Virus record (IMG/VR): IMGVR_UViG_3300030406_002873
Coordinates: 1-23,220 of that record
DNA from: a virus
DNA: 23,220 bases
Direction: 5' to 3' (one strand)
Shown in pieces: positions 4 through 17,341 of this stretch. The position numbers and the translations under genes were made by a program. Within the stretch, counting starts at the first letter, position 1; each line of letters opens with the position of its first letter. The notes beneath the pieces were generated by a model. It searched no databases and was not told where the DNA came from. It saw nothing but the letters and a program-made list of their open reading frames with translations.

Positions 4-219
4 ATGAAAAAGTCTTATAAGAAAGCCGATTGGTATAAAGACCGTTGCGATGAAATCTTTAAATTAATGAAGTGGGAAAACCATAAAGACCACGTTGGCT
101 TTGATTGGGCTAAAGAGAATATTTATTTAGATGATATTGCAAAGTTACAAGGTAATTGTAAAATGAGTCTTATGGATGAATTAGAGAATGTCGGTGGAAT
201 TGTTCTTAAGGAGGTTTGA
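4..219 (+). CDS. Hypothetical protein, possibly 5'-truncated by the window edge
   Basis: The frame runs to a TGA at 217-219 and encodes 71 residues from the first ATG. The reading frame is open to the window edge, so the true start may lie upstream and no ribosome-binding site can be checked. The product is charged and hydrophilic, with two Cys (in DRCDE and GNCKM) and several Trp, including a KWENHKDH stretch. It has no signal peptide or membrane segment. I do not recognise a family. Its last codons contain the strong AAGGAGGT site of the next gene, so the two are co-transcribed and probably translationally coupled. Confidence 0.7.
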   Translation: MKKSYKKADWYKDRCDEIFKLMKWENHKDHVGFDWAKENIYLDDIAKLQGNCKMSLMDELENVGGIVLKEV

Positions 220-221
220 TT

Positions 222-1034
222 ATGAGTTGGCAAGATGTATTAAAAAGAAAAGGAAAGCAAAAGAGACAAAGAAAAGCATTGGCTGAAGCAAATGCTCAAT
301 TAAATACGCTTGATGATTTTTATGCAGCAAGGGAAAATGCAAGACAGGCTCTATATAACACTACAAAGGGGCAAAGACAGAAACTTCTTAGATTGATTGA
401 AGATGACCTCAAGAAAAAGCGTGATGGTAAAATAATAACAGATGAGCGTTTAATAAACGAAAAGACTAATCCTTCTACTACATTTACAGAAGAAGAAAAC
501 TTTGGCCATAGATTAAAATTTGGTCAACATAGAGGATTACGACTACCAGATAATTTAATAAAACTATTGGCTAAAACTATTTATTTTAGAGACTTTGCTT
601 CTTTCTTTATGAATCGTGCATATACTAGCAAAAAGACAAACGTATATGGGAATCGAAAATATAGTTACCTTGACCGTAAAGTAATGTTACGTGACATATA
701 TCAAAAACAATTTTGGCCAGCGTTCAATGAATGGATGAAAAGTCTTACTGATGAACAGAAACAAAAAATGTCTGAATGGAATAAAAAATCTGCTGAAGAA
801 GAAAGAAAAAGATATGAGGCCGAAGCACCCGAAAGAGAAAAGAAAGCCCGCTATGAGGCTAAAAAGGAAGCAAAGCGAGCAAAAAGAGAAGCCCAACAAG
901 CAAAAAGAGAAGAAAGAAAAAAATTAAGAGAGGGCTTAAAAGGAAGAAAACCTCAAGGTGCAGGTGGTAAATCTAAATCAGAAAGAAGTCGGGAGCATGG
1001 CCGACACAGTTCTCGACAATTTAAAAAATTATAG
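222..1034 (+). CDS. Tagged basic protein with charged helical C-terminus, hypothetical
   Basis: This encodes 270 residues from ATG 222, which sits 6 bases after the strong site AAGGAGGT (208-215). An in-frame TTG at 216 is overlapped by that context and is a poorer start. The protein opens with MSWQDVLKRKGK, the W-x-x-[IV]-L-K tag shared by many genes here. A middle part (about residues 90-180) looks globular, with aromatic-rich segments. The C-terminal 90 residues are a Lys/Arg/Glu/Ala-rich helix ending in a Gly/Lys/Ser/Arg tail, very basic overall. Nucleic-acid binding or DNA condensation is an inference from charge only. I recognise no catalytic motif or known family. Confidence 0.85.
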   Translation: MSWQDVLKRKGKQKRQRKALAEANAQLNTLDDFYAARENARQALYNTTKGQRQKLLRLIEDDLKKKRDGKIITDERLINEKTNPSTTFTEEENFGHRLKFGQHRGLRLPDNLIKLLAKTIYFRDFASFFMNRAYTSKKTNVYGNRKYSYLDRKVMLRDIYQKQFWPAFNEWMKSLTDEQKQKMSEWNKKSAEEERKRYEAEAPEREKKARYEAKKEAKRAKREAQQAKREERKKLREGLKGRKPQGAGGKSKSERSREHGRHSSRQFKKL

Positions 1035-1042
1035 TGATATTT

Positions 1043-1168
1043 ATGAATAAACTAGGAAACCACGATTTTATGTATTGTGGCATTTGTTACTTTGAAGGAG
1101 AAAAACCATTCAGTTTCTGCGACTTATGCTGGATTGCTCATGGAAAACCAAAGGGGATGAAAGAATGA
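1043..1168 (+). CDS. 41-residue zinc-finger-like microprotein
   Basis: A short gene of 41 codons from ATG 1043 to TGA 1166-1168. It fills the gap between the previous stop and the next start. It encodes two CxxC knuckles, YCGIC and FCDLC, with spacing C-x2-C-x10-C-x2-C, the usual geometry of a small zinc ribbon. The spacing to its neighbours supports it: TAG at 1032-1034, GTGAT just upstream (1034-1038), and an ATGA overlap with the next start at 1165. Function is unknown; binding of DNA, RNA or protein is possible. It lacks the W-x-x-I-L-K tag of its neighbours. Confidence 0.75.
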   Translation: MNKLGNHDFMYCGICYFEGEKPFSFCDLCWIAHGKPKGMKE

Positions 1169-1452
1169 ATTGGAAAACCATTATGAAGAAGGATAAAAAA
1201 GATATGCGAGTAGGTCGTGTATATCCTTCAGATAGAGCAGGAAAAAAGATTATGATGCTTACTCACGAAGGAAAAAAGATTCATGCAGGTGCTAAAGGAT
1301 ATGGCAATTACAAAGGCAAAGGTAAGAATAGAGGCGGTGGAACTCATACAAATAAAAAACGTCGTGCTAATTTTAAATCAAGACACAATTGCCAACAATG
1401 TAAAGGAAGAATTACAACACCTAAATGTTTAGCCTGTAAAAAATTGTGGTGA
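1165..1452 (+). CDS. Tagged basic protein with C-terminal zinc ribbon
   Basis: 95 residues from ATG 1165, which overlaps the TGA of the preceding microprotein as ATGA. A longer frame starting at 1126 is possible, but it would overlap that gene by 43 bases and would bury the shared tag. The N-terminus MNWKTIMKKDKK is a clear member of the M-x-W-x-x-[IV]-[LM]-K tag set. The middle is Gly/Lys-rich and strongly basic. The C-terminus carries C-x2-C-x8-C-x2-C (CQQC and CLAC), a probable zinc ribbon. The layout of tag, basic linker and zinc ribbon suggests a small nucleic-acid-binding virion or cargo protein (inference). Confidence 0.85.
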   Translation: MNWKTIMKKDKKDMRVGRVYPSDRAGKKIMMLTHEGKKIHAGAKGYGNYKGKGKNRGGGTHTNKKRRANFKSRHNCQQCKGRITTPKCLACKKLW

Positions 1453-1456
1453 TATT

Positions 1457-1666
1457 ATGAAGTGGGAAGAAGTATTGAAAAAGAAAAAGAAAAGAAAATC
1501 AACTGTTAATCAAGCAGGTAATTATACTAAACCTGCTATGCGTAAAAGAATCTTCAATAGAATAAAAGCAGGAACTAAAGGCGGTGCAGCAGGTCAATGG
1601 TCTGCAAGAAAAGCACAAATGCTAGCACAAGCGTATAAACGGGCAGGTGGTGGCTATCGCAATTAA
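1457..1666 (+). CDS. Tagged small basic protein with GQWSARKAQ-type domain (DUF5872-like)
   Basis: 69 residues from ATG 1457, preceded by GGTGAT (1449-1454) that overlaps the upstream stop. It begins with the tag MKWEEVLKKKKKRK. The rest contains KGGAAGQWSARKAQML followed by AQAYKRAGGGYRN. I recall this arrangement (a helix with Arg-x-Arg-Ile, a Gly turn, then GQWSARKAQ and GGGY) from small uncharacterised proteins of other phages and giant viruses, annotated as DUF5872; that link is from memory and unverified. The protein is extremely basic (poly-Lys at residues 8-12). No enzymatic motif is visible. The next gene overlaps its stop. Confidence 0.85.
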   Translation: MKWEEVLKKKKKRKSTVNQAGNYTKPAMRKRIFNRIKAGTKGGAAGQWSARKAQMLAQAYKRAGGGYRN

Positions 1667-1931
1667 TTGGTGGAGTATTCTAAAAGCCAAAACAAAAAGG
1701 CAAAGAGATTTATCTACTTGGACTGATGAAGATTGGGGAAGTGCTGAACAACATAGAGCCAAAGATAAAGGAAAGAAACCTAAATCTAAAACTAAGGGAA
1801 GATATATGCCAAGAGCAACTTATCAAAGAACAGATAAAAAAACTTTAAGGTATCAAGACGCAAAGAAGAGAAAAGGTCGCAAAAAAGGTATTCAGCATGT
1901 TCCAACAGGAAAGAAGTTCAGTCAAAAGTGA
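1647..1931 (+). CDS. Tagged small basic protein with an uncertain, possibly ATT, start
   Basis: The frame is open from GTG 1647 (94 residues). The tag found in neighbouring genes appears here as INWWSILKAK, and its Met position is occupied by ATT at 1662-1664. ATT 1662 overlaps the upstream TAA and lies 8 bases after GGTGG (1649-1653). Initiation at ATT would give an 89-residue protein with a perfect M-x-W-x-x-I-L-K start, while GTG 1647 or 1650 would add four or five residues. The body has TWTDEDWGSAEQ, then KKPKSKTKGRYMP and GIQHVPTGKKF, a Lys-rich pattern I have seen in small phage proteins of unknown function. No catalytic motif is seen. The exact start is unresolved. Confidence 0.8.
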   Translation: MVAIAINWWSILKAKTKRQRDLSTWTDEDWGSAEQHRAKDKGKKPKSKTKGRYMPRATYQRTDKKTLRYQDAKKRKGRKKGIQHVPTGKKFSQK

Positions 1932-1936
1932 TTATT

Positions 1937-2380
1937 ATGTGGCAACAAATCCTAAAGAAAGATATGTCTTACTGCGTTTGTAGTGGGCCAAATAAAACTA
2001 AGGGATTTACTTGTAAAGCACATTGTCGAAGTAAAGAAATGAAAAAGGCTGACCCGAAAAAAGGAACGGGTAGAAAACCAAAAGGTTCTGCTAGAAGATT
2101 ATACACAGATGAAAACCCAAAAGATACTGTTCCAGTTAAATTCAAAACTGCTCAAGACGTAAGAGATACATTTGCAAGTTCAGCATTCAAATCTAAATCA
2201 CATCAAAGACAATCACAAATAATTAATTTAGTTGAACAAAGATTGCGAGCAGCAGTTAAAAACGCAAAAGACCCAGATACAAAGAAAAGATTAAATGCTG
2301 CACATAAAGTAGCATTAGCAAGAAAAGAATCCAGTAAAAGAAAAACAAAAAGCCGAAGAAGAAGCGCATTTACAAGGTGA
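1937..2380 (+). CDS. Tagged basic protein with N-terminal Cys cluster
   Basis: 147 residues from ATG 1937, chosen because it gives the tag MWQQILKK at the extreme N-terminus. The in-frame GTG 1928 is part of the GTGATT ribosome-binding context and of the upstream stop. Residues 13-30 hold C13, C15, C26, H29 and C30, a possible metal site. Residues about 52-65 read KPKGSARRLYTDENP, followed by a helical segment (SHQRQSQIINLVEQRLRAA) and a strongly basic tail. The family resembles small conserved proteins of unknown function in marine phages (recollection, not verified). Together with its neighbours it forms a run of five very basic tagged proteins. Confidence 0.85.
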   Translation: MWQQILKKDMSYCVCSGPNKTKGFTCKAHCRSKEMKKADPKKGTGRKPKGSARRLYTDENPKDTVPVKFKTAQDVRDTFASSAFKSKSHQRQSQIINLVEQRLRAAVKNAKDPDTKKRLNAAHKVALARKESSKRKTKSRRRSAFTR

Positions 2381-2385
2381 TTAAA

Positions 2386-2739
2386 ATGAAATGGAAAGAA
2401 GTATTGAAAAGCAATTGTGGCACACATAAAACAGATGAAAAGATGCTATATGGTGGGCAAAAGAGGTTAGATAAAGATAAGGATGGTAAAATCACAGAAA
2501 AGGATTTTGCTATGCTTAGAAGAGAAAGAGTAAAGAAAAACATTGAAGAAGAAATTCTTGAAGAAGTAGAAGATGAAGGCGGTGCTTTAGGAATGAAGAA
2601 CCTAAAAGATATTGCTGACAAAAAGAAACTCAAAGAAACTCTTTCCTCTATGGAAGATAGAAAGATTATTTATGAACATGAAGATGGTGATTTCTATACT
2701 CACAAGCCAAAGAGAGAACAGAAAAAGAAAGGTGATTAA
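2386..2739 (+). CDS. Tagged protein with a single EF-hand-type calcium loop
   Basis: 117 residues from ATG 2386, five bases after AAGGTGAT. That site also contains the previous stop TGA (2378-2380). The protein starts with the tag MKWKEVLKSN. Residues about 30-41 read DKDKDGKITEKD, matching the EF-hand calcium-binding loop: D1, D3, D5, G6, I8 and an acidic residue at 12. Unlike its basic neighbours it is rich in acidic residues in the middle (EEEILEEVEDEGG). The C-terminal half could form a small winged-helix-like fold, with a hairpin around IIYEHEDGDFYTH, but this is weak. A calcium-responsive structural role is possible. No enzymatic motif is seen. Confidence 0.85.
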   Translation: MKWKEVLKSNCGTHKTDEKMLYGGQKRLDKDKDGKITEKDFAMLRRERVKKNIEEEILEEVEDEGGALGMKNLKDIADKKKLKETLSSMEDRKIIYEHEDGDFYTHKPKREQKKKGD

Positions 2740-3141
2740 GTGGATTGGCAAATTATTCTAAAAGAATTGCTTTGTCCTTTAGCAACAAAAAGCGTCTACT
2801 TAAATACTAAAAATAGAGACGAAGCAATAAAAAATAAAAACGTTAAATATGGGCCACTAAATGTAGATGAACCTGCTGATTATTGGGAAAAGATAGCAGA
2901 ACATTGGAATACAACAGAAGAGGCTGCTAAGAAATCAAAATGTTCAAACTGTATTGCCTTTGATATTAGCCCTAGAATGAAAAAGTGTATGCCATTAGAA
3001 GGTGATTTAGGTTATTGTTGGATGCATCACTTTAAATGTCATAAAGATAGAAGTTGCTATACTTGGGCAAAAGGTGGCCCAATTAGCAAAGATGAAGTAT
3101 CTAAGAAGAATCAAATGAAAAGCGAAAGCAAAAAGGCTTAA
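2740..3141 (+). CDS. Tagged Cys-rich protein, candidate metal or Fe-S binder
   Basis: 133 residues from GTG 2740, which follows the previous TAA directly and has AAGGTGAT at 2728-2735. The start gives the tag MDWQIILKEL, confirming GTG use. The C-terminal half has seven Cys in the whole protein, six of them clustered: C68, C71, C83, C93, C100 and C106. Around them are KCSNCIAFD, CMPLEG, GYCWMHHFKCH and SCYTWAKGGPI. The clustered Cys/His/Trp pattern suggests a zinc or iron-sulfur site, and I recall similar small proteins in other tailed phages without assigned function. It is the last gene of the small-protein block; the portal gene follows after a 40-base gap. Confidence 0.85.
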   Translation: MDWQIILKELLCPLATKSVYLNTKNRDEAIKNKNVKYGPLNVDEPADYWEKIAEHWNTTEEAAKKSKCSNCIAFDISPRMKKCMPLEGDLGYCWMHHFKCHKDRSCYTWAKGGPISKDEVSKKNQMKSESKKA

Positions 3142-3181: not shown

Positions 3182-4819
3182 ATGGTGGAACAGAAAAGAA
3201 GATTCTCCATTACTAATCTATTTAGGCGTTCTACTCCCAAACCTGCCGATAGACAAATTTTTAACATCGGTATTCAAGAAAGAAGAAATCAACAGATGAT
3301 GACCGCACCAATCATTTATTCGATGGTGCAACAATCTGTTATCGTAAGAACCTGTATTACTCAATTAAAGCAAGAAATCTTTAGAAGAGGATATGTTTGG
3401 GAAAAGTCTTATGAAGCACTTTGTAAAAATTGTGGTAAAAAACACCAAAAGCCAGTTATGGAATGTTCTCGATGCGGTTCAGAAGATTTAAGAATTCCAG
3501 ACCCAAAACAATTAGAATACATTGAAAAGTTCTTAGATAGATACGTCAATAAATCTGAACAGTTATTTATTGATGTTCTTAGGGAACTTGAAGATGATTT
3601 AAATACAATGGATGATGCATACATTGTAATGGTAAAAGAGTATTTTATTGACGGTAATGGTAAAATACGAATGCATCGAGTAAAAGAATTATACAGGGGC
3701 GACCCTGTAACTATGTATATTTATGCTGATGAAAATGGCGTAAGAGGAACAAAGGGTTTCACTTGCGTAAATCATCGTGATATTATTGCTACCGAACCAC
3801 ATGAAACTTGTGAAGTTTGTGGCAGTAATTTATTTCCTATTCATTATGTAAATAGAGTTGGAGGCGAGGACCAATACTTTTTAGAAGGAGAAGTGCTTCA
3901 TTTTAGTAAATATAGTCCATCTCGTCTTTACGGATTATCTCCTATTTTAACTCTTTATAACCATATTATGACTTTGATTGCTATGGAGAATTACGTCAAT
4001 TCATCCTATACAAAGAGTAGAATGCCGAGAGGTCTATTAGCAGTTCAAACAAGAAACATGGAGTCTATGCGCTCTTTCTGGAGGTCTGTTAAGGAAAAGA
4101 TGGAACAAGACCCGCACTTCATTCCTGTCATGGGAATCGAAGCGGAGAACGGTAAAGGGGCTGTTGAATGGATTAAGTTCATGGACAGTTTGAAGGAGAT
4201 GGATTACGTTTCAGTCAAGGATGATTTACGGGATAGGATTTCAGCATTCTATGGAGTCAGTAAAGTATTTATGGCTGATAATACTACAAGTGGTGGATTA
4301 AACAACGAAGGTATGCAGATTCTTGTTACAAATAGAGCAGTTCAAATGGCTCAGAATGTATATAACAATTATGTATTTCCGTTTTTGGTTAAACAGTTTG
4401 GAATTACAGATTGGGATTTAAAACTACCACCAAGCGAAGAAGAAGATGAAATTGCAGTATTGCGTAAAAGAGAAATTGAAGTCAATATTGCAGCATCAAT
4501 TAAGAATTTAGGATTTGAAATTGAAATGGATGAGGATGGTCAATTTACTTATACTAAACCTGAGCCTAAAGAAGAACAATCAGAAAAAGGTGAAGATATG
4601 ATAGAAAATGACCCATTAGCAGGTTCTAATTTAGACCAAAGGGATTTAGATGAACAAGCAAGACAATTTGCTCAAGGTGGAGGAAAACCACAAGAAAACC
4701 CACCTGCTACAAGAAATAAACCATCAATGAGCGTTGGTCCAGATAAAAGATTACAAGGATTACCTCAAGATGCAGGGAATCAAAACGTAGATAGAAGAAG
4801 TGAAAGGAGAGTTGGATAA
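3182..4819 (+). CDS. Portal protein with two zinc-ribbon-like insertions
   Basis: This 545-residue protein is the dodecameric portal through which DNA enters and leaves the head. The evidence is the typical portal core: LHFSKYSPSRLYGLSPIL (about residues 239-256) followed by a long helix, then VSVKDDLRDRISAFYGVSK and a GGLNNEGMQ loop, where portals load onto the capsid vertex and bind DNA. It has two unusual metal-site insertions: C81-x2-C84-x10-C95-x2-C98, and C195-x2-H198-x11-C210-x2-C213. The C-terminal 90 residues are Gln/Pro/Lys-rich and look disordered. ATG 3182 is preceded by ATAGGGGGCG. The gene heads the recognisable head module; terminase is not in the window. Confidence 0.93.
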   Translation: MVEQKRRFSITNLFRRSTPKPADRQIFNIGIQERRNQQMMTAPIIYSMVQQSVIVRTCITQLKQEIFRRGYVWEKSYEALCKNCGKKHQKPVMECSRCGSEDLRIPDPKQLEYIEKFLDRYVNKSEQLFIDVLRELEDDLNTMDDAYIVMVKEYFIDGNGKIRMHRVKELYRGDPVTMYIYADENGVRGTKGFTCVNHRDIIATEPHETCEVCGSNLFPIHYVNRVGGEDQYFLEGEVLHFSKYSPSRLYGLSPILTLYNHIMTLIAMENYVNSSYTKSRMPRGLLAVQTRNMESMRSFWRSVKEKMEQDPHFIPVMGIEAENGKGAVEWIKFMDSLKEMDYVSVKDDLRDRISAFYGVSKVFMADNTTSGGLNNEGMQILVTNRAVQMAQNVYNNYVFPFLVKQFGITDWDLKLPPSEEEDEIAVLRKREIEVNIAASIKNLGFEIEMDEDGQFTYTKPEPKEEQSEKGEDMIENDPLAGSNLDQRDLDEQARQFAQGGGKPQENPPATRNKPSMSVGPDKRLQGLPQDAGNQNVDRRSERRVG

Positions 4820-5059: not shown

Positions 5060-7444
5060 ATGATGCATCGTATTATTCTTAAAGGCGCAGATGATGACAT
5101 TTTTATGATGTTATCAATGATGCACGATGATATGATTAGTAAAATTCTTAAAGCAAAATTTACTGCCGAAGAAGCATTATCAAAGAAGAATAAAGATGCT
5201 GCCGTTAAAGAACTAGGAAAACTTTTAGATACAAGAGTTCTTGAAGAAAAAGATGAAGATGGAAAATTAACTGGCAAAATTATTATCGCTAAAGAAGGCG
5301 GTATTAGATTAAGAAATTTCATCAAAGAAAAGAAACCTTTGTTTAATAGAGAATTATTTTCAAGGGAGTATATGGGAGATAAACCTGCTCCTGAAGAAGA
5401 TGATAAAAAAGAAAAATTGCCTTCTGTTCAGCAACAAAGAACAGAATTCTTAACTAAGTATAAAACTCTTGATAAGTTTAAAGAAGCCTTTGCAAAAATA
5501 AAAACCTTCAATGAAACATTTATGAATAAGAAAACGGGAACTTATAAAAATAAATACTTTGATGATAAAGTAATTCAAGTTCCTGAAAATTTTGATATGT
5601 CAAAAATAGAAAATCAAATTAAAAGATTAGATAATAAATATGGTAAGGAAATTGAAAGAATTGGAATTAAATTAGGGGGCAAATATCCTGAAGTAAGAGA
5701 AGGAACTACTCCCGAAATGGAAAAAGAATTTGATAAGGCATCGAAAGACTATCAAGAAGGTATTAAGAAAATTACTGATAAAATTGACAAATTAAAGAAT
5801 AAGACAAAAGATGAAACGATACAAATTCTTAATGACAAGTTTAAAGCAGATGTTAAAGATTATAGACAAAAAGTGAAATCATTTGCTCCTTTTATTCAAG
5901 ATGGAAAGCCCATTAAAGGATTAGCAAAATTAATTAAAGACGCTCCTAGTAAGTTAAAAGAAATGAAAGCGGCTGATAAGAAAGTAGCAGAACAACTAGA
6001 AAGTTCTGACCCCTTGTTAAATCACCTAAACAGAAAAACTAAAACAAAAAAAGTAACACTTTCTAGGTTTAAAAATGAAAATAACTTCGATGTATTTATG
6101 AGCGATTTAAGAAGAGTTTTGGCTATGATTCTAAACTCTTTCGGAACAGACTACAAAAGAGAAGTTAATGAAATCATTCAAAAAATTAATGATTCTTTAA
6201 AGAATGAAATGGCTAGGCTTAAGGATAGAAAGTCTGATGATGCTATTCGAGCATTAGATGAAAGAGAAGAACTTGCAGGAGTTTTAAATACTTTCTATAA
6301 AGATTTAAACCGTATGCTTAGAGAACTAAGTTCAAAATCTGGAATTGTTAAGTTCTTTACAGATAATCCTATTTCTAAACAAACTTTAATTCGTTTAATT
6401 CAAGAAAGTGGTGAGGATGAAGAATACTTGAATTATACTGTTCCTAGAAAAGACAAAGCCGATAAATTACAAAAACTTCCCAGACCAATTGACCCTCCTT
6501 CTCAAATAGAACAAATCAAATCTAAATTAACTAAACAAAATATTTCTAAGATAGTTAAGGTTTTAGTTGAAGCAAGAATCAGCCCTAGTGGTTTTTATTC
6601 AGATAAGCAAGTATCTGCTATTAAAGCAAATGTAAAGGAATATACAAAAGAATTGACTGATATTGCGGTGCAAATAGAAAATAGCATCAATAGAACGGAA
6701 AAAGAAATAAAGGGAGATTCAAATCAATTTAAGCGTTCTATTAGCAAAATTAAAACTGCAACAGAAGCAATTGACTTAGACTCTTTAGATAACATAAAGG
6801 CAAAAGAGTTTAGTGATGCATTGAATGAAATAAATGATGAATATCAAGAATTTGTAGATTCCTTTGAGTTTAGTAAATTAGAGTCTTTAGCAAGAATGGC
6901 TAGAGAAAGAATGACAACACCACCAAGCCCTAAATCCAGAAAAGAAAAACCTGAAGAAGAAGAAGAATTTATGTTTGATTTTGATAAACTTTTGGAGCAA
7001 TCAGAAAGATTCAAGAGAGTCTATGAAAGAGGCATGAAAAAGGCAGGTCTTGAAGAACAATTAAAAGAGGCTAAAGAAAATATTAATCAACTAAGCCGAG
7101 CAATTATGAAATTAGTGGGCGCTAAAAATAAATTAGAAGAAAAAGAAGAAAAACTCGCTGAATCTTCAGAAATGCAAAGTCAGATAATGAGCGATGACTT
7201 TAAGCAATTCTTAAATTCTATTTCTGAAGAAACCAGAAACCTACAAGAATTAGAGAAAGACTTCATTAATCATTTGAAGCAAATAGCGAAAATTGAAGCA
7301 GTATTGGAAAATAAAGAATATGCCAAAGCATTAGCAATAGCATCATATAGATATGGTAAGAATCTTGAAACAGAAGAAATTAATAGATTAAAGGATGCAA
7401 TTAAAACAACAAGAAATATAATGAGAAGGAGAGAAATAAGATGA
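5060..7444 (+). CDS. Large charged helical protein of unknown function
   Basis: 794 residues from ATG 5060, preceded by GAGGCGAT (5047-5054), a good ribosome-binding site that overlaps the previous TGA. Almost the whole sequence is Lys/Glu/Asp/Leu-rich with heptad-like runs, predicting extended helices and coiled coils (notably about residues 190-260, 360-450 and 550-760). The N-terminus MMHRIILKGADD resembles the tag of other genes, with His in place of Trp and the same I-I-L-K, so it may be a divergent tag. It is not likely to be the tape measure, because the tail-tube gene only begins at 22545. An internal virion, scaffold-like or ejected protein is possible. No enzymatic motif is seen. 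Confidence 0.88.
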   Translation: MMHRIILKGADDDIFMMLSMMHDDMISKILKAKFTAEEALSKKNKDAAVKELGKLLDTRVLEEKDEDGKLTGKIIIAKEGGIRLRNFIKEKKPLFNRELFSREYMGDKPAPEEDDKKEKLPSVQQQRTEFLTKYKTLDKFKEAFAKIKTFNETFMNKKTGTYKNKYFDDKVIQVPENFDMSKIENQIKRLDNKYGKEIERIGIKLGGKYPEVREGTTPEMEKEFDKASKDYQEGIKKITDKIDKLKNKTKDETIQILNDKFKADVKDYRQKVKSFAPFIQDGKPIKGLAKLIKDAPSKLKEMKAADKKVAEQLESSDPLLNHLNRKTKTKKVTLSRFKNENNFDVFMSDLRRVLAMILNSFGTDYKREVNEIIQKINDSLKNEMARLKDRKSDDAIRALDEREELAGVLNTFYKDLNRMLRELSSKSGIVKFFTDNPISKQTLIRLIQESGEDEEYLNYTVPRKDKADKLQKLPRPIDPPSQIEQIKSKLTKQNISKIVKVLVEARISPSGFYSDKQVSAIKANVKEYTKELTDIAVQIENSINRTEKEIKGDSNQFKRSISKIKTATEAIDLDSLDNIKAKEFSDALNEINDEYQEFVDSFEFSKLESLARMARERMTTPPSPKSRKEKPEEEEEFMFDFDKLLEQSERFKRVYERGMKKAGLEEQLKEAKENINQLSRAIMKLVGAKNKLEEKEEKLAESSEMQSQIMSDDFKQFLNSISEETRNLQELEKDFINHLKQIAKIEAVLENKEYAKALAIASYRYGKNLETEEINRLKDAIKTTRNIMRRREIR

Positions 7445-7815
7445 CATGGGATTTTTACAATACAGGAGAAGAATTCGTCCTCAAAGAAAAGACAGTAGCA
7501 AAGAATCTACTAGATACATTAAGTCCTAAAGAAAGAAAGTTATTGAAAAAGAAAGTTCAAGCGGCATCACCGACTGAATTTTTTGGACAAGACTTTACTA
7601 AATTAGGAGAACTTATTGAGTCTTTAAGAGAAATCAATTTTATTAAAACAGATGACAAGTTAAAAAAGAAAATGAAATCAATGGATGAAAGGAATATTGA
7701 TATAGTTGCCACAGCATCCAAACTTCGTAAGGAGTATGAGTTGCTCTATCGTCAATTGCGAGATTTAGTTTATCCACCAAAAAAAGGAGAGAAAAAAGAT
7801 GACAGAAAAGAATGA
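7441..7815 (+). CDS. Small helical protein, hypothetical
   Basis: 124 residues from ATG 7441, overlapping the preceding TGA as ATGA with AGAAGGAGAG upstream. It starts MTWDFYNTGEEFVLKEK. The Trp at position 3 recalls the shared tag, but the rest does not match cleanly. The body is charged and helical, with KERKLLKKKVQ and a C-terminal coiled-coil-like stretch ending in Lys/Asp. It has no Cys and no membrane segment. It sits between the 794-residue helical protein and the small scaffold-like gene, so it may act with them in assembly. I do not recognise the family. Confidence 0.85.
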   Translation: MTWDFYNTGEEFVLKEKTVAKNLLDTLSPKERKLLKKKVQAASPTEFFGQDFTKLGELIESLREINFIKTDDKLKKKMKSMDERNIDIVATASKLRKEYELLYRQLRDLVYPPKKGEKKDDRKE

Positions 7816-8041
7816 AGTTAGTAATGATATTTTGGCTATATTAAAAGCCTTAACGGATAAGATTGAATCATTAGAGAGAACAGTTTATGCAAAGGATAAT
7901 TTGCTTATGAAATCTGGTCTTGTTGTTTCAGAAAGCCCTACTCCATCAATGGATAATAAGATTGCTTCACCTGTTGGTGATGTAGCAAACATGGAATGGT
8001 CTGAAATTCATAAAATGGTAGAAAAGGTAGGAGGGCAGTAA
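7799..8041 (+). CDS. 80-residue coiled-coil protein sharing the scaffold's C-terminal peptide
   Basis: ATG 7799 overlaps the previous gene by 17 bases and has GGAGA ten bases upstream. The 80-residue product has an N-terminal coiled coil (SNDILAILKALTDKIESLER), a short linker, and a C-terminal peptide MEWSEIHKMVEKVGGQ. Residues 65-74 match residues 400-409 of the protease-scaffold (MDWSDIHKMV) with only Glu/Asp changes. In HK97-like systems the scaffold C-terminus contacts the capsid protein, so this small protein may be a mini-scaffold or capsid-binding adaptor. That function is inferred; the shared peptide is read directly from the sequence. Confidence 0.87.
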   Translation: MTEKNEVSNDILAILKALTDKIESLERTVYAKDNLLMKSGLVVSESPTPSMDNKIASPVGDVANMEWSEIHKMVEKVGGQ

Positions 8042-8042
8042 T

Positions 8043-8405
8043 ATGACAGAAGATTGGAAGCAAGTATTAAAGGCGATAAATATTGGACAAAGGCAAGAAG
8101 AGGCTAGACAAAATACTCAGCAAATAGTAGATAAATTAATTGCTGAAACTAAATATACTCAAAGAATAGATAAAAGACTAGATAAGTTAGTGGCTAAAAA
8201 CCAAAATGCAAAGGAATATAGATTAAAGATACCAATTTTAGCAATATTAACACAAAAATTTAAGTTTAGAGGGCAACCTGAAAGTATTAAACCTATGCTA
8301 GAACAAAAATTAGCAGAAGAATATGATGTTGAACAGGTCGAGATTAAAGGTAGAGAAATAATATTCAAACGGCCAAAGAATACTGGCGGAACTGAAACGG
8401 AGTGA
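8043..8405 (+). CDS. Tagged small helical protein, hypothetical
   Basis: 120 residues from ATG 8043, one base after the previous TAA and preceded by GGTAGGAGGG. It begins MTEDWKQVLKAI, the W-x-x-V-L-K tag with the Trp shifted to position 5. A charged coiled-coil-like region follows (about 15-55). The C-terminal 60 residues look like a compact alpha/beta unit (KIPILAILTQKFKF, YDVEQVEIKGREIIFKRPK). It has no Cys or membrane segment. It is adjacent to the 80-residue gene that carries the related motif at its other end, which strengthens the link of both to capsid assembly. I recognise no known family. Confidence 0.86.
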   Translation: MTEDWKQVLKAINIGQRQEEARQNTQQIVDKLIAETKYTQRIDKRLDKLVAKNQNAKEYRLKIPILAILTQKFKFRGQPESIKPMLEQKLAEEYDVEQVEIKGREIIFKRPKNTGGTETE

Positions 8406-8932: not shown

Positions 8933-11434
8933 ATGCCTCTTCTTATTGAAAAGGATAAAGATTCTTCCGAAGAGATTATACGTCTTTTTGAGAAAACAAG
9001 AGTCGCTTATCTATCTGCTCGCACCGACCCCAAAGAATATGGGAATAGGTGGCGTAAAGCAATTGATGACATTAGAGAAATCTATGAGCAATTGAATGAA
9101 CTTAGTAAAGAAATGAAAAAGTTTGTTCAAGAAAATGAATTAGAAAACAAAGAAGCAAAAGACCCTACAAGTAATATCGCTGAAAAGATTTACAACGGTA
9201 TTAAAGAAATGCGATTCAGTTCTGATTTGATTTCAGACCCATTCGCAAGAAAATACAAAGGGAATGTTCTTGAAGGATTACTCTCTTCTCCAGAAACAAT
9301 GGTTAAATTTGTTCACTATGCTTTAAGAAATAATGATAAAGCACTTCCAAAAGAAGTTTGGAGCATTAAAGATATGGAAGCCGATACGATAACTGATGGG
9401 TTGGAAGGACTCGACCTAGATGAAGAGGACATCCCCCTCTATATTATCGAACAGTATGGCGACGATAAAGACTCAAAAAAGGTAGAAAGCAAAGTTAAGG
9501 CTGCCTTAGAGATATTAGAAACGTTATTTTTCTCCAAATACTCAAAAGAAGATTTAAAGGACTTGAAGGAAATTGATGGCATTGAAAAGTCTGAGCAAAA
9601 ATCTAAAAGCGATTTTATTACTCCGAACAAACCAATGTATAGAATCTTTGATATTGATGACATGAATGAATTAAAAGGCTTCTCAGGAAATTACCTCGTT
9701 CAAGAAAAGTATGATGGTATGAGAATACAGATTCATAAGATTGATGGTAATGTTCGCATCTATTCATATAATGAAAAAGATATTTCCGAAAAGTGTAAAG
9801 AACAAGTTGAAGAACTCAAAAAGAAAAAGTATGGAGATTGCATTCTCGATGCTGAATTAATTTTGTTTGATGGCGATGAAGCACTACATCGTGCTGATAC
9901 TGTTGCTCATGTATTTAAGAATAAATACCCCGATGCTAAGTTAAGAGCGCACGTTTTTGACATTATGCGACACAATGAACAAGAATTAGTAGAAGAAGAA
10001 CTTGATAATCGAATCAATACTTTATTTAACAACTATTCAATGCATTCAACAGAAGCAATTGCATTTCCATCAAAGAAAGATACAAGAACTGCTGATAACT
10101 TGAAGGATGTGGAAGAGTATGCGAAAGAGATTATGGATATGCCTACATCCGAAGGTGTAGTTATCAAAGATATGACCTCGACGTATTACATAGGCACAAG
10201 AAAGAATCCTAAGTGGATTAAGTGGAAAAAGTTTGTTGATTTGGATTTAATTGTCCTTGATAAGAAAACTACAAAATCAAATCTAAATTCATATACTTTA
10301 GGAGCAGGGCCAGTTGAAGGAGAAGGAAAGTTTTATTCTGAAATTGAAGGTAAAACTTACATGGATGTTGGTAAGGCATTGAATACCAAAATAGATGTAG
10401 ATATTGGTGATATTGTTAGAGTTAAGGTTGATGAAGTTAAAAAGAATGGAGATAGATATACTTTGTTTTCTGCAAAGGTTATTGAAGTTCCCGAAGTTGA
10501 ATATCCTGATAAAATCGTTACATTAGAAATGCTCTCACAAGATACTAAGAAATCATTAAATTATGATGTTAAGGCATTAGAAAAAGGAATGATTGTTACA
10601 GACCATATTCATGGAGAAACTAATGTAATTATTAAATCTGATTTTGATGGCTTTACTATTTATGGTTTTGAAGAAAGTAATCTCATGTCTAAGAACGCAT
10701 TGATTGATATTGATATGTGGAAAGCACAAGCCGAAGAAATTATGAAAACTAAGCAATCAAAATTAACTCAAATTGGTTTCAATTACCTAAAAGAAAATGG
10801 TTCTAAAACGCCAAAGGAATTACACAATTTCTTAGTTAAGAATCATAAATCTATTTATGAAGATATTTTGGAAAGTAAATTAAATAGAGTCAAAGATTGG
10901 TTTGAACAAAGAGATGGTATCTCTTTTGATATGAAAACTAAGAAACTCTTTGCTGATGATGATAAAGTTATTAAAGAACCAACAGTATTGAAAGCATATA
11001 AAACTCCAGAAGAATATCGTAAAGGTGATTTTAAGATTTACTTAAGAGAAGATGATAATTTAAACTTTACAATATCTGTTGGTGGAGAAACAATGCATTG
11101 GTTTATTGAACTTAATGAAGAGGATAATATCTTTGATTTATTTGGAAAAGCAGGTAAATATCCTGCGGAAGTTTCAAAGAATGTTTCTAAGGATAAGGTA
11201 ATTGATTCTGGTAAAATTGAATTAGGATTACAAAGACACGGTTATCACGAATATTTCTTAGAAGGAAATAAGTTTGAAACAAAATTACACATTAGAGTAT
11301 TACCTGTAAAGGATAAGAAAATGTGGCTTGCATGGACTGGATTCAAACAAACCCCTGCTGATAAGGATAATGATGAAGGAATCTGGAACATCTATGAGGA
11401 TAGGTTTAACGAATTAACCATACCACAAGAGTAA
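8933..11434 (+). CDS. Multidomain ATP-dependent DNA ligase
   Basis: This 833-residue protein seals DNA nicks through a ligase-adenylate intermediate. The nucleotidyltransferase core is clear: motif I K259-Y-D-G-M-R264 with K259 as AMP acceptor, LDAEL with E308, FDIM 342-345 (motif III), EGVVIK 407-412 (motif IV) and KWIKWK 427-432 (motif V). An OB-fold follows at about 485-520. There are large extra parts. Residues 1-235 are an unrecognised N-terminal domain, 600-670 are possibly winged-helix, and 695-805 are a beta-rich domain ending in MWLAWTGFKQTP. That last domain faintly resembles the LigD-type 3'-phosphoesterase fold (low certainty). ATG 8933 follows GTGATAATTC. A ligase inside the head gene block is unusual. 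Confidence 0.93.
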   Translation: MPLLIEKDKDSSEEIIRLFEKTRVAYLSARTDPKEYGNRWRKAIDDIREIYEQLNELSKEMKKFVQENELENKEAKDPTSNIAEKIYNGIKEMRFSSDLISDPFARKYKGNVLEGLLSSPETMVKFVHYALRNNDKALPKEVWSIKDMEADTITDGLEGLDLDEEDIPLYIIEQYGDDKDSKKVESKVKAALEILETLFFSKYSKEDLKDLKEIDGIEKSEQKSKSDFITPNKPMYRIFDIDDMNELKGFSGNYLVQEKYDGMRIQIHKIDGNVRIYSYNEKDISEKCKEQVEELKKKKYGDCILDAELILFDGDEALHRADTVAHVFKNKYPDAKLRAHVFDIMRHNEQELVEEELDNRINTLFNNYSMHSTEAIAFPSKKDTRTADNLKDVEEYAKEIMDMPTSEGVVIKDMTSTYYIGTRKNPKWIKWKKFVDLDLIVLDKKTTKSNLNSYTLGAGPVEGEGKFYSEIEGKTYMDVGKALNTKIDVDIGDIVRVKVDEVKKNGDRYTLFSAKVIEVPEVEYPDKIVTLEMLSQDTKKSLNYDVKALEKGMIVTDHIHGETNVIIKSDFDGFTIYGFEESNLMSKNALIDIDMWKAQAEEIMKTKQSKLTQIGFNYLKENGSKTPKELHNFLVKNHKSIYEDILESKLNRVKDWFEQRDGISFDMKTKKLFADDDKVIKEPTVLKAYKTPEEYRKGDFKIYLREDDNLNFTISVGGETMHWFIELNEEDNIFDLFGKAGKYPAEVSKNVSKDKVIDSGKIELGLQRHGYHEYFLEGNKFETKLHIRVLPVKDKKMWLAWTGFKQTPADKDNDEGIWNIYEDRFNELTIPQE

Positions 11435-11450: not shown

Positions 11451-11481
11451 TACTGAACTGAATTACAAGGAGTTGAAGGAC

Positions 11482-12720
11482 ATGAGCATCAGTATCATGG
11501 CAACAAGACATGATGAGTTTAACATTATCAAAAGCGATGAACTGATGATTGGTGGATATGCAAGCATTGAAATTGTAGATAAGCAAAATGATTTAATAAC
11601 CTTAAAAGCATTAAATGAAGCCGTTAAAAAGTTCATGGAAAAGCCTGAATATAGAAATGTAATGACAAATCATTCAAATGTTCAAGTCGGAGAAGTAGTA
11701 GATTCATATAGAGATAAAACAGGGAGATTGTGGAAAACAGAAGTAGATGATGTTGGATTCTTTGTTGTAATCAAATTAAGAGATGATATAGAAAAAGCCA
11801 AAGAAGTTGGTCGAGGAATTCGCAAAGGGTCGTTAAGGTCATTTAGCATTGGAGGACAAGCGTTACAGAAATCTAAGAAGAAACATTCAGAAATGGGTGA
11901 ATACAACGAGATAAGTAAATTAGAACTGCACGAAGTAACAATATGCGAAAAAGGAATTAACCCCGAAGCGAGATTCGATATTTTAAAACAAGATAAAGGA
12001 GAAAAAAATATGTCAGAAAAATTAGCGAAAGCATTAGAAGAATTAGACGCATTGATGGAAGAAGTCAATACGTTGAGAAAGGAAGAAGAAGAACAAATGG
12101 AAGATGAAAAAGCCATGAATCCAAGAGCAACAGAAATGATGGACGATGAAAAGGCTGATGATTCTGAAATGATGGAAATGGCCGATGAAGAAATGATGGA
12201 AGATGAAAAGGGAATGGGCGAATATGCAGATTATGAATCTGCTGATAAGGCTTATCTTCGCACATTAGATGGTGCAGGTAATCAAATCGGTGAACCTGCT
12301 GATAGAATCGTTATCAACAATGGTCGCCCAACATCTTCTGATATGCCTGTTGTTAAGGCATTCGACAACGATGAATTAGATACACTTGATTTGTCTGTTG
12401 GTAACATTGAGAAGGCTTACGAGGCTTTCCGTCAAGAACAACTTGAAAAGTTGGCTTATGACAACTTGCAAAAGTCCTTTGAAGCACGTTTCGCAAGAGA
12501 AAAGGCTTCAAGAGAAAACATTCTCGCAAAGTCTCAATATGATGCACAAAGCGAGATTGCATCCCTTAAGGATGAATTTACACAATTAAGAAAGTCTTTG
12601 ACGGCTGAAAAGGAAACAATCCTAAAGGCTCAAGAAGAGGCAAGAATTGAACTCCCAAGTATTGATGATTTGGCTGAAATGGATTGGTCGGATATTCATA
12701 AGATGGTTGGAGGTTATTAA
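11482..12720 (+). CDS. HK97-type prohead protease fused to scaffold
   Basis: 412 residues from ATG 11482; an earlier in-frame TTG 11473 immediately follows AAGGAG and is too close to use. Residues 1-170 form a U35/XkdF-like prohead serine protease: MTNHSNVQVGEV with H64, GSLRSFSIGG with S120 or S122 as nucleophile, and LELHEVTICEKGINP as the third conserved strand. The protease cleaves scaffold and capsid during maturation. Residues 177-412 are the scaffold: acidic coiled coil (KALEELDALMEEVNTLRKE), Met/Glu/Asp-rich linker, a second helical region (320-390), and the C-terminal docking-type peptide MDWSDIHKMVGGY. The capsid gene follows one base after the stop. An internal start may also produce the scaffold alone. 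Confidence 0.9.
   Translation: MSISIMATRHDEFNIIKSDELMIGGYASIEIVDKQNDLITLKALNEAVKKFMEKPEYRNVMTNHSNVQVGEVVDSYRDKTGRLWKTEVDDVGFFVVIKLRDDIEKAKEVGRGIRKGSLRSFSIGGQALQKSKKKHSEMGEYNEISKLELHEVTICEKGINPEARFDILKQDKGEKNMSEKLAKALEELDALMEEVNTLRKEEEEQMEDEKAMNPRATEMMDDEKADDSEMMEMADEEMMEDEKGMGEYADYESADKAYLRTLDGAGNQIGEPADRIVINNGRPTSSDMPVVKAFDNDELDTLDLSVGNIEKAYEAFRQEQLEKLAYDNLQKSFEARFAREKASRENILAKSQYDAQSEIASLKDEFTQLRKSLTAEKETILKAQEEARIELPSIDDLAEMDWSDIHKMVGGY
11995..12001 (+). promoter_or_regulatory. Internal ribosome-binding site for nested scaffold
   Basis: AAAGGAG lies inside the protease-scaffold gene, eight bases before ATG 12010, which is in frame with the outer gene. The spacing and strength match the best sites in this window, and the position falls exactly at the protease/scaffold domain border. 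Confidence 0.6.
12010..12720 (+). CDS. Nested in-frame scaffold protein
   Basis: Translation from internal ATG 12010 (Met177 of the 412-residue protein) would give a 236-residue free scaffold. It is preceded by AAAGGAG with eight-base spacing. The N-terminus MSEKLAKALEELDALMEEV is a natural scaffold coiled coil. The C-terminus carries MDWSDIHKMV. Nested scaffold genes inside the protease gene are well known (lambda C/Nu3), where the excess of scaffold over protease is needed for assembly. Here the nested product is inferred from the site and the domain boundary; no independent proof is visible. Confidence 0.6.
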   Translation: MSEKLAKALEELDALMEEVNTLRKEEEEQMEDEKAMNPRATEMMDDEKADDSEMMEMADEEMMEDEKGMGEYADYESADKAYLRTLDGAGNQIGEPADRIVINNGRPTSSDMPVVKAFDNDELDTLDLSVGNIEKAYEAFRQEQLEKLAYDNLQKSFEARFAREKASRENILAKSQYDAQSEIASLKDEFTQLRKSLTAEKETILKAQEEARIELPSIDDLAEMDWSDIHKMVGGY

Positions 12721-12730
12721 GATGGTTGGA
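12700..12730 (+). repeat. 12-base direct repeat at scaffold/capsid gene junction
   Basis: AAGATGGTTGGA occurs at 12700-12711 and again at 12719-12730. The first copy encodes the scaffold end K-M-V-G, and the second contains the capsid start ATGGTTGGA (M-V-G). The stretch GGAGGTTATTAAG between and across the copies supplies the capsid ribosome-binding site (GGAGGT 12709-12714). The repeat may be a small tandem duplication or coincidental use of similar codons. Confidence 0.6.
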
Positions 12731-14056
12731 TATATTAACACTATTGCAGATTTAGAAGCACAAACATACGGAACAAGCACTTTTGCTGGTAATTCTTTAC
12801 TAAAGCAAGCAGGAATGGTTGGTGGCATTCATACAGGACATGATGGTGGCCCTGCATTTAGCGGTTCAGCCGTTTCTGATGTTTCAGCATTATACAACGT
12901 CGTTTATGGACAAAAGGTTTGGTCTATGTTAAACCGTGAAGTTAATGCATTATCAATGATTTCAAAGCGACCATACTCTTCTAGCGGTTGGAGAGTATTA
13001 AAGTCAAGACCTGCGGGTGGAAGCGGTAATCTATTTACTGTTGATGCTTCGGGAACTGCTTCTTTAGGAGAATTAGGTTCTGATGACCCAAGAGCAGACT
13101 TAATTGGTGGTGTTCCTGAAAATGCAGCATTATCAACTGCGGCTGACGGTTTAGGCCCAATTGCACCAACATATGCTCAATTAAACATGAGTCCAAAGGT
13201 TATTGCACATCAATTCGATTTCAGCGAATTGGCTATGGAAATGGCTCAGATTGATGATGGTATTGGCGATATTAGAGCGCAAATGCGTGAAGATATGGGC
13301 AAGCACCACGCAGAAGTTCAAAATAAGATGTTAGTTATGCCTTTGGAGCATTTCGGTGAATCTGCTGCTATGCCTAACATTACTAACAATTATACCTCAT
13401 TAAACAAGGTTATCTCTTCAAGAGCAGAATTGTTGGCTATTGATGGTGGAGTTATCGCTACTGATACTACTTCTGCTTCTAACGCATTAGGACAAATTTA
13501 CGGAAGTGAGCGATTTACTGCCGCATCTTTCCTAGATTCTGAAGTTGATTTTGGTTCGGGATATGCTTCGGGAGATGTTCGTTCTTTGACTTTAACTCGT
13601 CTAAATGACATGATTAGAAACCTAAGACTTGCGGGTGGTTCACCAAAGGTTATTTTAACTGGATATGATACCATTCAAGCACTTGCTGACCTATTGCAAA
13701 GCCAAGAGCGATTTATGGACAGAAAGGAGATTGTTCCTACTGTAAATGGTGTTCGTGGAACAAAAGGTCAAGAAGTTGGATTTAGAGTTGCAACATACTA
13801 TGATATTCCATTGATTCCTGTTAAGGACATGGCTACAACGGGTAATGCAACAACAAAGTTATCTGACCTATTATTCCTCGATACTGACCATCTATGGCTT
13901 TCTGTTATGAAGCCTACTCAATACTTTGAGGATGGTATTGCGAATGGAAACCCATTTGGCGTTGGAACGCTCGGAAACCGAGCATTATATCGAACAATTG
14001 GTGAAGTCGGATGTTCCTTCTTTAAGGGTCAAGGTAAGATTACTAACATTCAATGA
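12722..14056 (+). CDS. Major capsid protein, HK97 fold
   Basis: 444 residues from ATG 12722, seven bases after GGAGGT. The gene lies directly after the protease-scaffold, the standard position. HK97-like features include an N-terminal arm, then SMISKRPYSSSGWRVLKS (E-loop region begins nearby). The middle helix carries DIRAQMREDMGKHHAEVQNKM, the long spine-type helix. A later Gly-rich A-domain segment reads LTRLNDMIRNLRLAGGSPKV followed by ILTGYDTIQALADLLQSQ. The C-terminus holds a receptor-like loop and RTIGEVGCSFFKGQGKI. A longer in-frame reading from 12647 would overlap the scaffold and is rejected. Size is usual for this family. It probably assembles into the icosahedral shell after scaffold removal. 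Confidence 0.9.
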   Translation: MVGYINTIADLEAQTYGTSTFAGNSLLKQAGMVGGIHTGHDGGPAFSGSAVSDVSALYNVVYGQKVWSMLNREVNALSMISKRPYSSSGWRVLKSRPAGGSGNLFTVDASGTASLGELGSDDPRADLIGGVPENAALSTAADGLGPIAPTYAQLNMSPKVIAHQFDFSELAMEMAQIDDGIGDIRAQMREDMGKHHAEVQNKMLVMPLEHFGESAAMPNITNNYTSLNKVISSRAELLAIDGGVIATDTTSASNALGQIYGSERFTAASFLDSEVDFGSGYASGDVRSLTLTRLNDMIRNLRLAGGSPKVILTGYDTIQALADLLQSQERFMDRKEIVPTVNGVRGTKGQEVGFRVATYYDIPLIPVKDMATTGNATTKLSDLLFLDTDHLWLSVMKPTQYFEDGIANGNPFGVGTLGNRALYRTIGEVGCSFFKGQGKITNIQ

Positions 14057-14087
14057 GGAAAGGAAAAGAAAAAGGAGATGATTTATT

Positions 14088-16116: not shown

Positions 16117-16778
16117 TGTCATTAATGACAGGCTTTGCTATTTTAGTCGGAGAAGCAATATTAGGTTTTTACAAAAAAGTTCATGCAATTAATTTTGGAG
16201 TATATGGTGCAACAATGGTTGGTAAAACTACATTACATCATCAATTAAGAACAAGAGGTGAAGTTCCAACAATACAAAAAAGAACTGTTGGTCGTCATCG
16301 AGCAACACGAAAATCTATTAAATTAGATGGACAAATGAATACTCTTAGAACATCAGATATAGGCGGAGAAGCAATATACTGGAAAGAATGGGCTAAAGAT
16401 ATGCGTATTAGAAAAGTCAAATATGTTATCTTTATGATTGACCATAGGCATTTAGATAAAGGCGGTAATTTAGACCATCAAGTAGCGTGGAAATTCTTAG
16501 TTGATACAATTACAAGTGATAGATGGCCTAATGGTAAAAAGAAAAAAGAAGCAGATTATCCAATGGCAGTTTCTATTTGGGCAAACAAATATGATATTTG
16601 GGGAGATAAATACAAGAGCGATGCACCGATTGACAAACATCCAATTTTTGAACCCTTTAAATACGGTATGCAAAAACTAAATGATGTGGGAATACCGACG
16701 CACAAATATATTGTATCAGCGAAATCAGAACCCGAAGCAGTTTATCAAGGAATATTTACAATGATTAAGGACTATTGA
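16116..16778 (+). CDS. Ras/Arf-like small GTPase with N-terminal membrane helix
   Basis: 220 residues from ATG 16116, five bases after GGGTGGGGT; the stop of the upstream gene overlaps it as TAATG. Small-GTPase signatures are all in order: G1/P-loop G31-ATMV-G36-K37-T38, G2 candidate T57 or T64 in RTVGRHRATRK, G3 D81-I-G-G84, G4 N157-K158-x-D160 and G5 S201-A-K203. The DxGG form resembles Arf/SRPRB-type GTPases. Residues about 3-18 (LMTGFAILVGEAILGF) are a hydrophobic helix likely to anchor it in a membrane. It binds and probably hydrolyses GTP; the partner is unknown. I know of no standard role for such a protein in tailed viruses. No regulator gene is visible. Confidence 0.87.
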   Translation: MSLMTGFAILVGEAILGFYKKVHAINFGVYGATMVGKTTLHHQLRTRGEVPTIQKRTVGRHRATRKSIKLDGQMNTLRTSDIGGEAIYWKEWAKDMRIRKVKYVIFMIDHRHLDKGGNLDHQVAWKFLVDTITSDRWPNGKKKKEADYPMAVSIWANKYDIWGDKYKSDAPIDKHPIFEPFKYGMQKLNDVGIPTHKYIVSAKSEPEAVYQGIFTMIKDY

Positions 16779-16783
16779 TTATT

Positions 16784-17341
16784 ATGTGGTATGAAATCCT
16801 TAAAAAACTTAGGAGATTTACATTATCAGAATCTAGTAAAATATATAATATACCAGAATTAGCAGGTTACAGACCTCCAATTAGTAATAAACCTGCGGGA
16901 GTTTGGTATTCTTTTACATTAGGAAGAGGGGGATGGCTACATAGAACTCTATATGAGTATGGTTGGATTAAAAAATATAAATACATTTTAGAATTAGATA
17001 TTTCAAATCTTAAGATTTTAAAAATAAATAACGAAAAACAATTAGAAGAGTTTGACAAAAAATACGGAGTAGATTCTAAAGAGTTCGGAAGAGCAATAAG
17101 ATGGGATAAGAGTCCATTTAGACCAGAATTACCTGCCGTTAAAGAAGATTATGATGGGATAGAAATTAGAAATATTGATTTCAATTGGCACAAATTAGAT
17201 TGGGTAGATGGTTGGGATTTAGATTCTGGATGTATTTGGAAAACAAATGGTATAAAAGTCATTAAAGTAAAAGAAGTAGAAAAACGTCATTCAGATGAGC
17301 AAGATAAATTTCGTAGAGAAACTAGGGAAATGTTTGAATAA
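16784..17341 (+). CDS. Tagged protein, possible ADP-ribosyltransferase-like fold
   Basis: 185 residues from ATG 16784 (TTG 16775 is the earlier alternative and overlaps the previous stop). It starts with MWYEILKK, the same form of tag as the gene at 1937. The body has KPAGVWYSFTLGRGGW (about residues 35-50), YKYILELDISNLKILKI, YDGIEIRNIDFNW and DGWDLDSGCIWKTNG. This order, KPxGxWYS near the start, YDGIEI in the middle and a WDxxSGCIW end, recurs in phage and giant-virus proteins I recall, and may be an ADP-ribosyltransferase-like fold. I cannot confirm catalytic residues. T4 packages such an enzyme (Alt) by an N-terminal peptide, a suggestive parallel. Confidence 0.82.
   Translation: MWYEILKKLRRFTLSESSKIYNIPELAGYRPPISNKPAGVWYSFTLGRGGWLHRTLYEYGWIKKYKYILELDISNLKILKINNEKQLEEFDKKYGVDSKEFGRAIRWDKSPFRPELPAVKEDYDGIEIRNIDFNWHKLDWVDGWDLDSGCIWKTNGIKVIKVKEVEKRHSDEQDKFRRETREMFE

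Follow-up and report, generated by a model that had tools for sequence, protein, structure and literature searches.

Why would a viral protein of 80 residues (p80) end in the same peptide as the prohead protease-scaffold encoded further along the same genome? The window, meaning the whole stretch of DNA analysed, covers positions 1 to 23,220 of an IMG/VR record of 49,869 bases. In the same virus collection, related contigs number in the hundreds and usually measure up to about 96 kb. From gene content (portal, S78 protease, capsid protein and ATP-dependent DNA ligase) and size, we infer that the window comes from a magrovirus-type marine archaeal tailed virus; it matched no named magrovirus. 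The Poseidoniales, hosts of the magroviruses, count among the most numerous archaea in surface seawater, and magrovirus genomes have been described as those of viruses of marine Poseidoniales (PMC10160649). Among named viruses in the phage collection, Druskaviridae (HVTV-1, HCTV-1/5) are the closest, with a capsid protein identity of 24-26%; HVTV-1 and HCTV-1 also resemble the window in their protease (29-30% identity) and in the gene order protease-capsid. The literature searched, which mostly excluded subscription papers, held no study of magrovirus head assembly or assembly signals. The head genes and the parts of the two proteins are as follows:

3182..4819, + strand: portal protein (PHROG portal, E 4e-66; Pfam Phage_portal)
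7799..8041, + strand: p80, an ORF of 80 aa whose family is kept in 189 records
7895..7945, + strand: conserved middle of p80, D-N-x-L-M-K-[SA]-G-x-V-V-x-x-[ST]-P-x-P
7979..8038 (core 7991-8020), + strand: C-tail of p80, DVANMEWSEIHKMVEKVGGQ, a profile match to the scaffold tail
11473..12720, + strand: protease-scaffold (S78 prohead protease, acidic linker, coiled coil, C-tail), likely ATG start at 11482
11539..11991, + strand: S78 prohead protease domain (Pfam PF04586, residues 23-173)
12397..12651, + strand: 85-residue scaffold helix (residues 306-390), presumed coiled coil (AlphaFold2, pLDDT mostly 70-92)
12661..12717 (core 12679-12708), + strand: C-tail of the scaffold, IDDLAEMDWSDIHKMVGGY, two short predicted helices
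12722..14056, + strand: major capsid protein, to which the tails presumably bind (PHROG major head protein, E 6e-22; Pfam SU10_MCP; resembles Druskaviridae capsid proteins)
12722..12844, + strand: N-arm of the capsid protein, GYINTIADLEAQTYG...GNSLLKQAGMVGG, a candidate docking surface by analogy with P22

The scaffold fits the S78 prohead protease-scaffold class by its S78 domain, its gene position and its helical domain C-terminal to the protease. It matched Pfam Peptidase_S78 (E 4e-10, above the cut-off) and the PHROG head maturation protease (E 1.5e-15), while its match to TIGR01543 falls below that model's cut-off. The gene lies directly upstream of the HK97-type capsid gene, whose ATG begins one base past the scaffold stop codon. 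Its N-terminal domain belongs with the HK97-type prohead proteases (Peptidase_S78), but here the same chain continues into a coiled-coil scaffold with its tail. The AlphaFold2 model, built with 37 sequences of its own family, is of low overall confidence (mean pLDDT 53), and a fold search with it returned nothing meaningful. In this model the long helix is followed by two short tail helices at residues 394-399 and 402-410 (the latter being WSDIHKMVG), with a pLDDT of about 70.

The p80 protein begins with an amphipathic coiled-coil-like segment, continues with the conserved middle (DNLLMKSGLVV..SPTP) and ends in the shared tail. L36, K38, G40, P47 and P49 of the middle are invariant in an alignment of 31 p80s. 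Searches of PHROGs and NCBIfam gave no match, and Pfam gave only a sub-threshold match to LRRFIP, a coiled coil. An earlier sequence-only reading had described both proteins as a coiled coil plus a C-terminal peptide; the scaffold model agrees with this, and for p80 it is the sequence that fits. In 8/8 genomes examined, the p80 gene sits between the portal and scaffold genes. The same stretch of the head cluster holds an 833-aa protein (8933-11434 in the window) with an ATP-dependent DNA ligase domain in its centre; p80 is on one side of it and the scaffold on the other in 8/8 genomes checked, and 6/7 longer records have a further, distant ligase match elsewhere.

Residues 65-74 of p80 read MEWSEIHKMV (7991-8020), and residues 400-409 of the scaffold, numbered from the ATG at 11482, read MDWSDIHKMV (12679-12708). 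Both positions had been given by the sequence-only reading and proved correct when the sequence was re-read, as did its count of five base differences, three of them synonymous. Its statement that both proteins end in the peptide is slightly loose, since six residues follow in p80 and three in the scaffold, although the peptide is C-terminal in both. The match is longer than first noted: G-D-V-A-N-M-E-W-S-E-I-H-K-M-V in p80 stands against D-D-L-A-E-M-D-W-S-D-I-H-K-M-V in the scaffold. This gives a common tail of ~15-20 residues, D-x-[AGS]-x-M-[DE]-W-[S]-[DE]-I-H-K-M-V.

When all predicted C-termini were compared with each other, the p80/scaffold pair scored 63 in one genome (G000), against 36 for the runner-up pair and 34 for the best of one shuffled set. 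It was also the top pair in G004, G005 and G006 (four genomes tested in all), and 20 shuffles of other genomes gave maxima of 38-45. These scores rule out a chance likeness. Profile-profile comparison of p80 and the scaffold gave a probability of 97% (E 7e-11) over ~24 columns of the tail only, and 11% for the bodies. Full-length paralogy is excluded by this result, which leaves only the tail in common between unrelated bodies. The p80 and scaffold of the same genome use the same codon at 216 of 434 identical residues that have more than one codon. An agreement of only half (50%) eliminates recent duplication or gene conversion and bears out the earlier claim that the peptide is not a fresh duplication. 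Since the tail codons differ synonymously, the constraint acts at the protein level, and the two tails diverged long ago.

The tail core was scored as M-x-[WF]-x-[DEQT]-[IML] within the last 26 residues of complete ORFs, with overlapping records of one contig included. It was present in 204/208 scaffolds and 188/189 p80s, and each of the five tails outside the pattern departs from it at a single position. Both proteins occur in 167 records, and both tails are recognisable in every one of them, down to about 50% scaffold identity. The sequence-only reading had asked whether both C-terminal copies are conserved together in homologues and whether any homologous pairs lack the peptide. Co-conservation was found throughout these records, with no pair lacking it. 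The core of the tails in representative clades, scaffold first and p80 second, is as follows:

Clade A: MDWSDIHKMV / MEWSEIHKMV
Clade B: MSWADLNRLA / MSFDDMAKII
Clade C: MDWSELNRFV / MSFDEMEKII
Clade D: MSWSDIHKMV / MSWDDIEKFV
Clade E: MDWSDINALV / MSWDDINNLV
Clade F: MSWGDIHNLA / MDWDDIHKIV
L356: MSWAEINSFV / MEWKEINDMV

The prohead protease could use these tails as a cleavage substrate or for recognition, in which case p80 and the scaffold would share them because both must be cut. The clade A tails, with I-H-K-M, and the N-terminal tags of late proteins described below, with I-L-K, are compatible with cleavage after Lys, and the protease domain lies in the same chain as the scaffold tail. 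However, the Lys is gone in clade E (INAL, INNL) and altered in clades B and F, though M-x-W-x-[DE]-I stays. We consider a protease site very unlikely.

The scaffold and p80 tails of one genome are more alike than those of different genomes (p 0.006 with 10 deep clusters, 0.001 with 15 and 5e-5 with 17). This is clearest in clade E (MDWSDINALVERLEG / MSWDDINNLVDRLGG) and in L356 (MSWAEINSFVSQFE / MEWKEINDMVSRIE). Had the tails parted only once, prior to the radiation, no extra resemblance would be expected between a scaffold tail and the p80 tail encoded in the same genome, but such a resemblance was observed. The likeness points to a common partner of the two tails and is supportive rather than proof, as the permutation leaves residual relatedness among clusters. 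A contig scan beyond the virus collection found only three virus contigs (L354-L356), binned into a bacterial MAG; the p80 tail is present in 3/3 and a complete scaffold tail in 2/3, the third scaffold ending at the contig edge. The MAG that holds these magrovirus-like contigs is that of Maricaulis sp. IN14, and contamination is presumed.

What might the common partner be? On balance we favor a model in which the scaffold would hook onto the capsid protein (or the portal) by its tail, with p80 as a separately encoded, protease-free mini-scaffold. Finding the same tail on p80 and the scaffold in every lineage examined suggests a second, tiny scaffold that would act at the same shell site. The hook is favored by the tail-only homology, the co-conservation, the within-genome likeness, the location among head genes and the predicted helices. 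The sequence-only reading had offered "mini-scaffold or competitor" for p80; mini-scaffold is the leading reading here too, with the shared tail as a conserved module.

In herpesviruses, all scaffolds bind the major capsid protein via their C-termini, the protease-scaffold and the scaffold share that C-terminus, and the protease-derived form makes up only ~10% of the scaffold (PMC12474303). Like UL26 and UL26.5, the magrovirus proteins pair a protease-scaffold with a protease-free protein that has a common C-tail, and capsid binding by p80 would follow by analogy. UL26 and UL26.5 are in-frame overlapping genes with identical bodies, whereas the magrovirus genes lie ~3.4 kb apart and encode unrelated bodies, and the small magrovirus partner has only 80 residues. 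In P22, the gp8 scaffold is an elongated helical protein that finishes in a pair of short helices, and the predicted magrovirus scaffold may have a comparable layout; no sequence link between the tails is claimed. To our knowledge, the scaffold gene of P22 stands alone: the phage has no protease, and its scaffold tail recurs on no other protein. The P22 scaffold contacts the coat N-arm through two helices made by its final ~30 residues, and removing 11 residues destroys binding (PMC9965877). We take p80 as a protease-free mini-scaffold because its tail would follow the same logic as the C-termini of the P22 and herpesvirus scaffolds, but on separate genes with unrelated bodies.

During procapsid assembly, the two short helices after the long coiled coil would dock on the inner face of the capsid protein, and possibly on the portal too. 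The p80 protein would be a small coiled-coil oligomer that has this hook but lacks the protease. Mixed with the protease-scaffold, it could set the ratio of hook-bearing chains lining the procapsid to copies of the protease, as UL26.5 does beside UL26. Here we infer the partner of the tails as well as the co-assembly and stoichiometry of p80 and the scaffold. The capsid N-arm (YINTIADLEAQTYG), near-invariant in 35 sequences, may by analogy be the natural surface for the tails. Some records have the scaffold and capsid protein in one frame, a natural in-frame read-through, and these were used for a tail-capsid fusion model with stops read as Gly. The model is of low confidence (mean pLDDT 51, tail 35-44), and the tail in it is helical yet unplaced. 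Foldseek hits to this model were mostly HK97-type capsids and encapsulins, none of them significant. If the hook model is true, magroviruses would have an archaeal-virus, non-homologous counterpart of the herpesvirus two-scaffold arrangement. It also gives a testable role to an 80-residue protein without a database family.

Besides the low confidence of the fusion model, three points count against a mini-scaffold. The protein is very short for a scaffold, the model leaves unexplained LMKSG..SPTP, which is the most conserved part of p80 besides the tail, and the nearest named relatives (HVTV-1, vir519 and vir335) have no such scaffold pair. In the annotated genes of these three, no comparable pair of head proteins with the same tail was found. 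The Druskaviridae protease differs in that its C-terminus (..QKSWEQEDEPATDDQVGPAAQQLYDL) has no tail and no second copy exists.

The conserved middle segment, which is p80's own, would suit another explanation, in which p80 is a cargo or inner-head protein. The scaffold-like tail would then be an encapsidation signal, and p80 would stay in the head or be ejected. Tails that dock on a capsid can recruit cargo, N-terminal peptides do so in T4 (PMC3012670) and P1 (PMC9024508), and many tagged late ORFs surround p80. On the other hand, p80 is as universal as the scaffold and is found in the head cluster every time, in contrast to the N-tagged genes, which vary, and its layout of coiled coil and tail resembles a scaffold. 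Cargo seems unlikely to us. Still less probable is that p80 may be an adaptor that nucleates assembly, with its tail on the capsid protein and its conserved middle or coil on the portal. The place of the p80 gene between portal and scaffold is consistent with such an adaptor, and the P22 scaffold likewise has its C-terminal hooks on the portal, which they link to the coat (PMC12005531).

The p80 middle DNLLMKSGLVV (7895-7945) looks like the capsid N-arm piece GNSLLKQAGMVGG (12785-12820), and both are near-invariant. A profile comparison of the two (LMKSG against LLKQAG) was not significant (probability 7%). Both segments could be protease sites.

Short peptides with a similar core, the N-tags (M-x-W-x-[DN]-I-L-K), also occur at the N-termini of late proteins. 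Their carriers in the window, together with a neighbor of p80 that has an N-tag-like start, are as follows:

216..3141, + strand: block of seven late proteins whose N-tags read M-x-W-x-x-[IV]-[LM]-K or nearly so
7441..7815, + strand: 124-aa protein beside p80, a conserved neighbor starting MTWDFYNTGEEFVLKE
8043..8405, + strand: 120-aa protein with the N-tag MTEDWKQVLK, immediately 3' of p80
16775..17341, + strand: N-tagged late protein (MWYEILKK)

The start of the 124-aa protein looks like an N-tag broken by about 6 residues (7441-7500), and its presumed counterparts in clade E begin with a canonical N-tag (MTWEDILKEE). In eight genomes, W-x-x-[IVLM]-[LIVMH]-[KR] within 8 residues of a possible start was observed 127 times, with 0.76 expected. 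A stricter pattern gave 120 tagged genes on the strand of the capsid gene and 0 on the opposite strand. From these two results we conclude that the N-tags are a genuine late-gene address label. Nearly every tagged gene sits no further than about 30 kb upstream of the capsid gene, once the apparently different cut points of the contigs are taken into account. Each genome has 8-21 tagged late ORFs, with up to 19 in 14 kb of L259; tagged ORFs were noted in L257 and L313 too, and 794 distinct N-tags were collected. A function search with 56 N-tagged proteins left nearly all without a known family, the others being two PAP2 phosphatases, one DUF5754 and one DUF6943.

The N-tags are short N-terminal peptides common to otherwise unrelated late proteins, as are T4-type signals. 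Like the targeting sequence of T4 internal proteins and the N-terminal signal of P1 DarB, they stand on many unrelated small late proteins (PMC3012670, PMC9024508). The likeness is one of arrangement, and the magrovirus tags may work like the T4 capsid targeting sequence. These tags are arguably more surprising than the shared C-tail. Together with the W-x-[DE]-I tail, the neighboring N-terminal tag makes two defined peptides for finding docking sites on an archaeal HK97-type capsid.

The sequence-only reading had taken the N-terminal tag and the C-tail as the same binding element, so that one pocket would accept the same ligand at either end of a protein. The core M-x-W-x-[DE]-I(-x-K) does occur in both, only 1-4% of Trp contexts score as high on the N-tag profile as the C-tail of clade A, the window's own clade, and a third late family has an N-tag-like C-terminal peptide (SWQDILRW, SWMDILRN, QWREILKGL). 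Yet the N-tags keep W-x-[DN]-I-L-K in every clade while the C-tails change (W-A-D-L-N-R-L, W-S-D-I-N-A-L, W-G-D-I-H-N-L). On the tag profile, scaffolds from clades B, C, E and F have C-tails whose scores are matched by 8-20% of random Trp contexts. The +4 position is Leu or Ile in the N-tags and mostly His or Asn in the C-tails. The C-tails also lack what defines the N-tag family, namely I-[LIV]-[KR] after W-x-x, constant across clades. The case for equating tag and tail is weak, and we regard a single pocket as improbable. A broader version would be one procapsid receptor that reads a Trp-centered code at either end, with C-terminal copies recruiting two kinds of scaffold, N-terminal copies loading 10-20 virion proteins per genome, and scaffold and cargo competing; this seems to us a long shot.

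The third family consists of fast-evolving late proteins of 330-480 aa with N-tag-like peptides at the extreme C-terminus (SWQDILRW, SWMDILRN, KWDEVLRV, QWREILKGL). Members were seen at G005:C1 55341-56792 (-), G007:C1 82846-83967, G008:C1 76784-78046 and G006:C1 86784-87785 (-), and two homologues end in SWYEYLWG and KMWQTNLWR. Given these tag-like C-termini, the N-tag itself may function on either terminus, even should the scaffold tails prove to be another kind of ligand.

No N-tags were seen in the 25-30 kb head regions of Druskaviridae that were read. In HVTV-1 (L186, 9230-18018) and HCTV-1 (L189), proteins encoded between portal and protease carry another repeated peptide, RVYVDSPDEAPEGVQVQQG..GG.YY, which is possibly an analogous case of tag sharing among head-cluster proteins. 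In vir519 (L187), a 799-aa protein upstream of the capsid gene (11851-14250) ends in KAGKMTTEEIERQFGGE. This recalls the clade D p80 tail, HKMSWDDIEKFVGGR, minus the Trp, and is possibly a distant form of the same hook.
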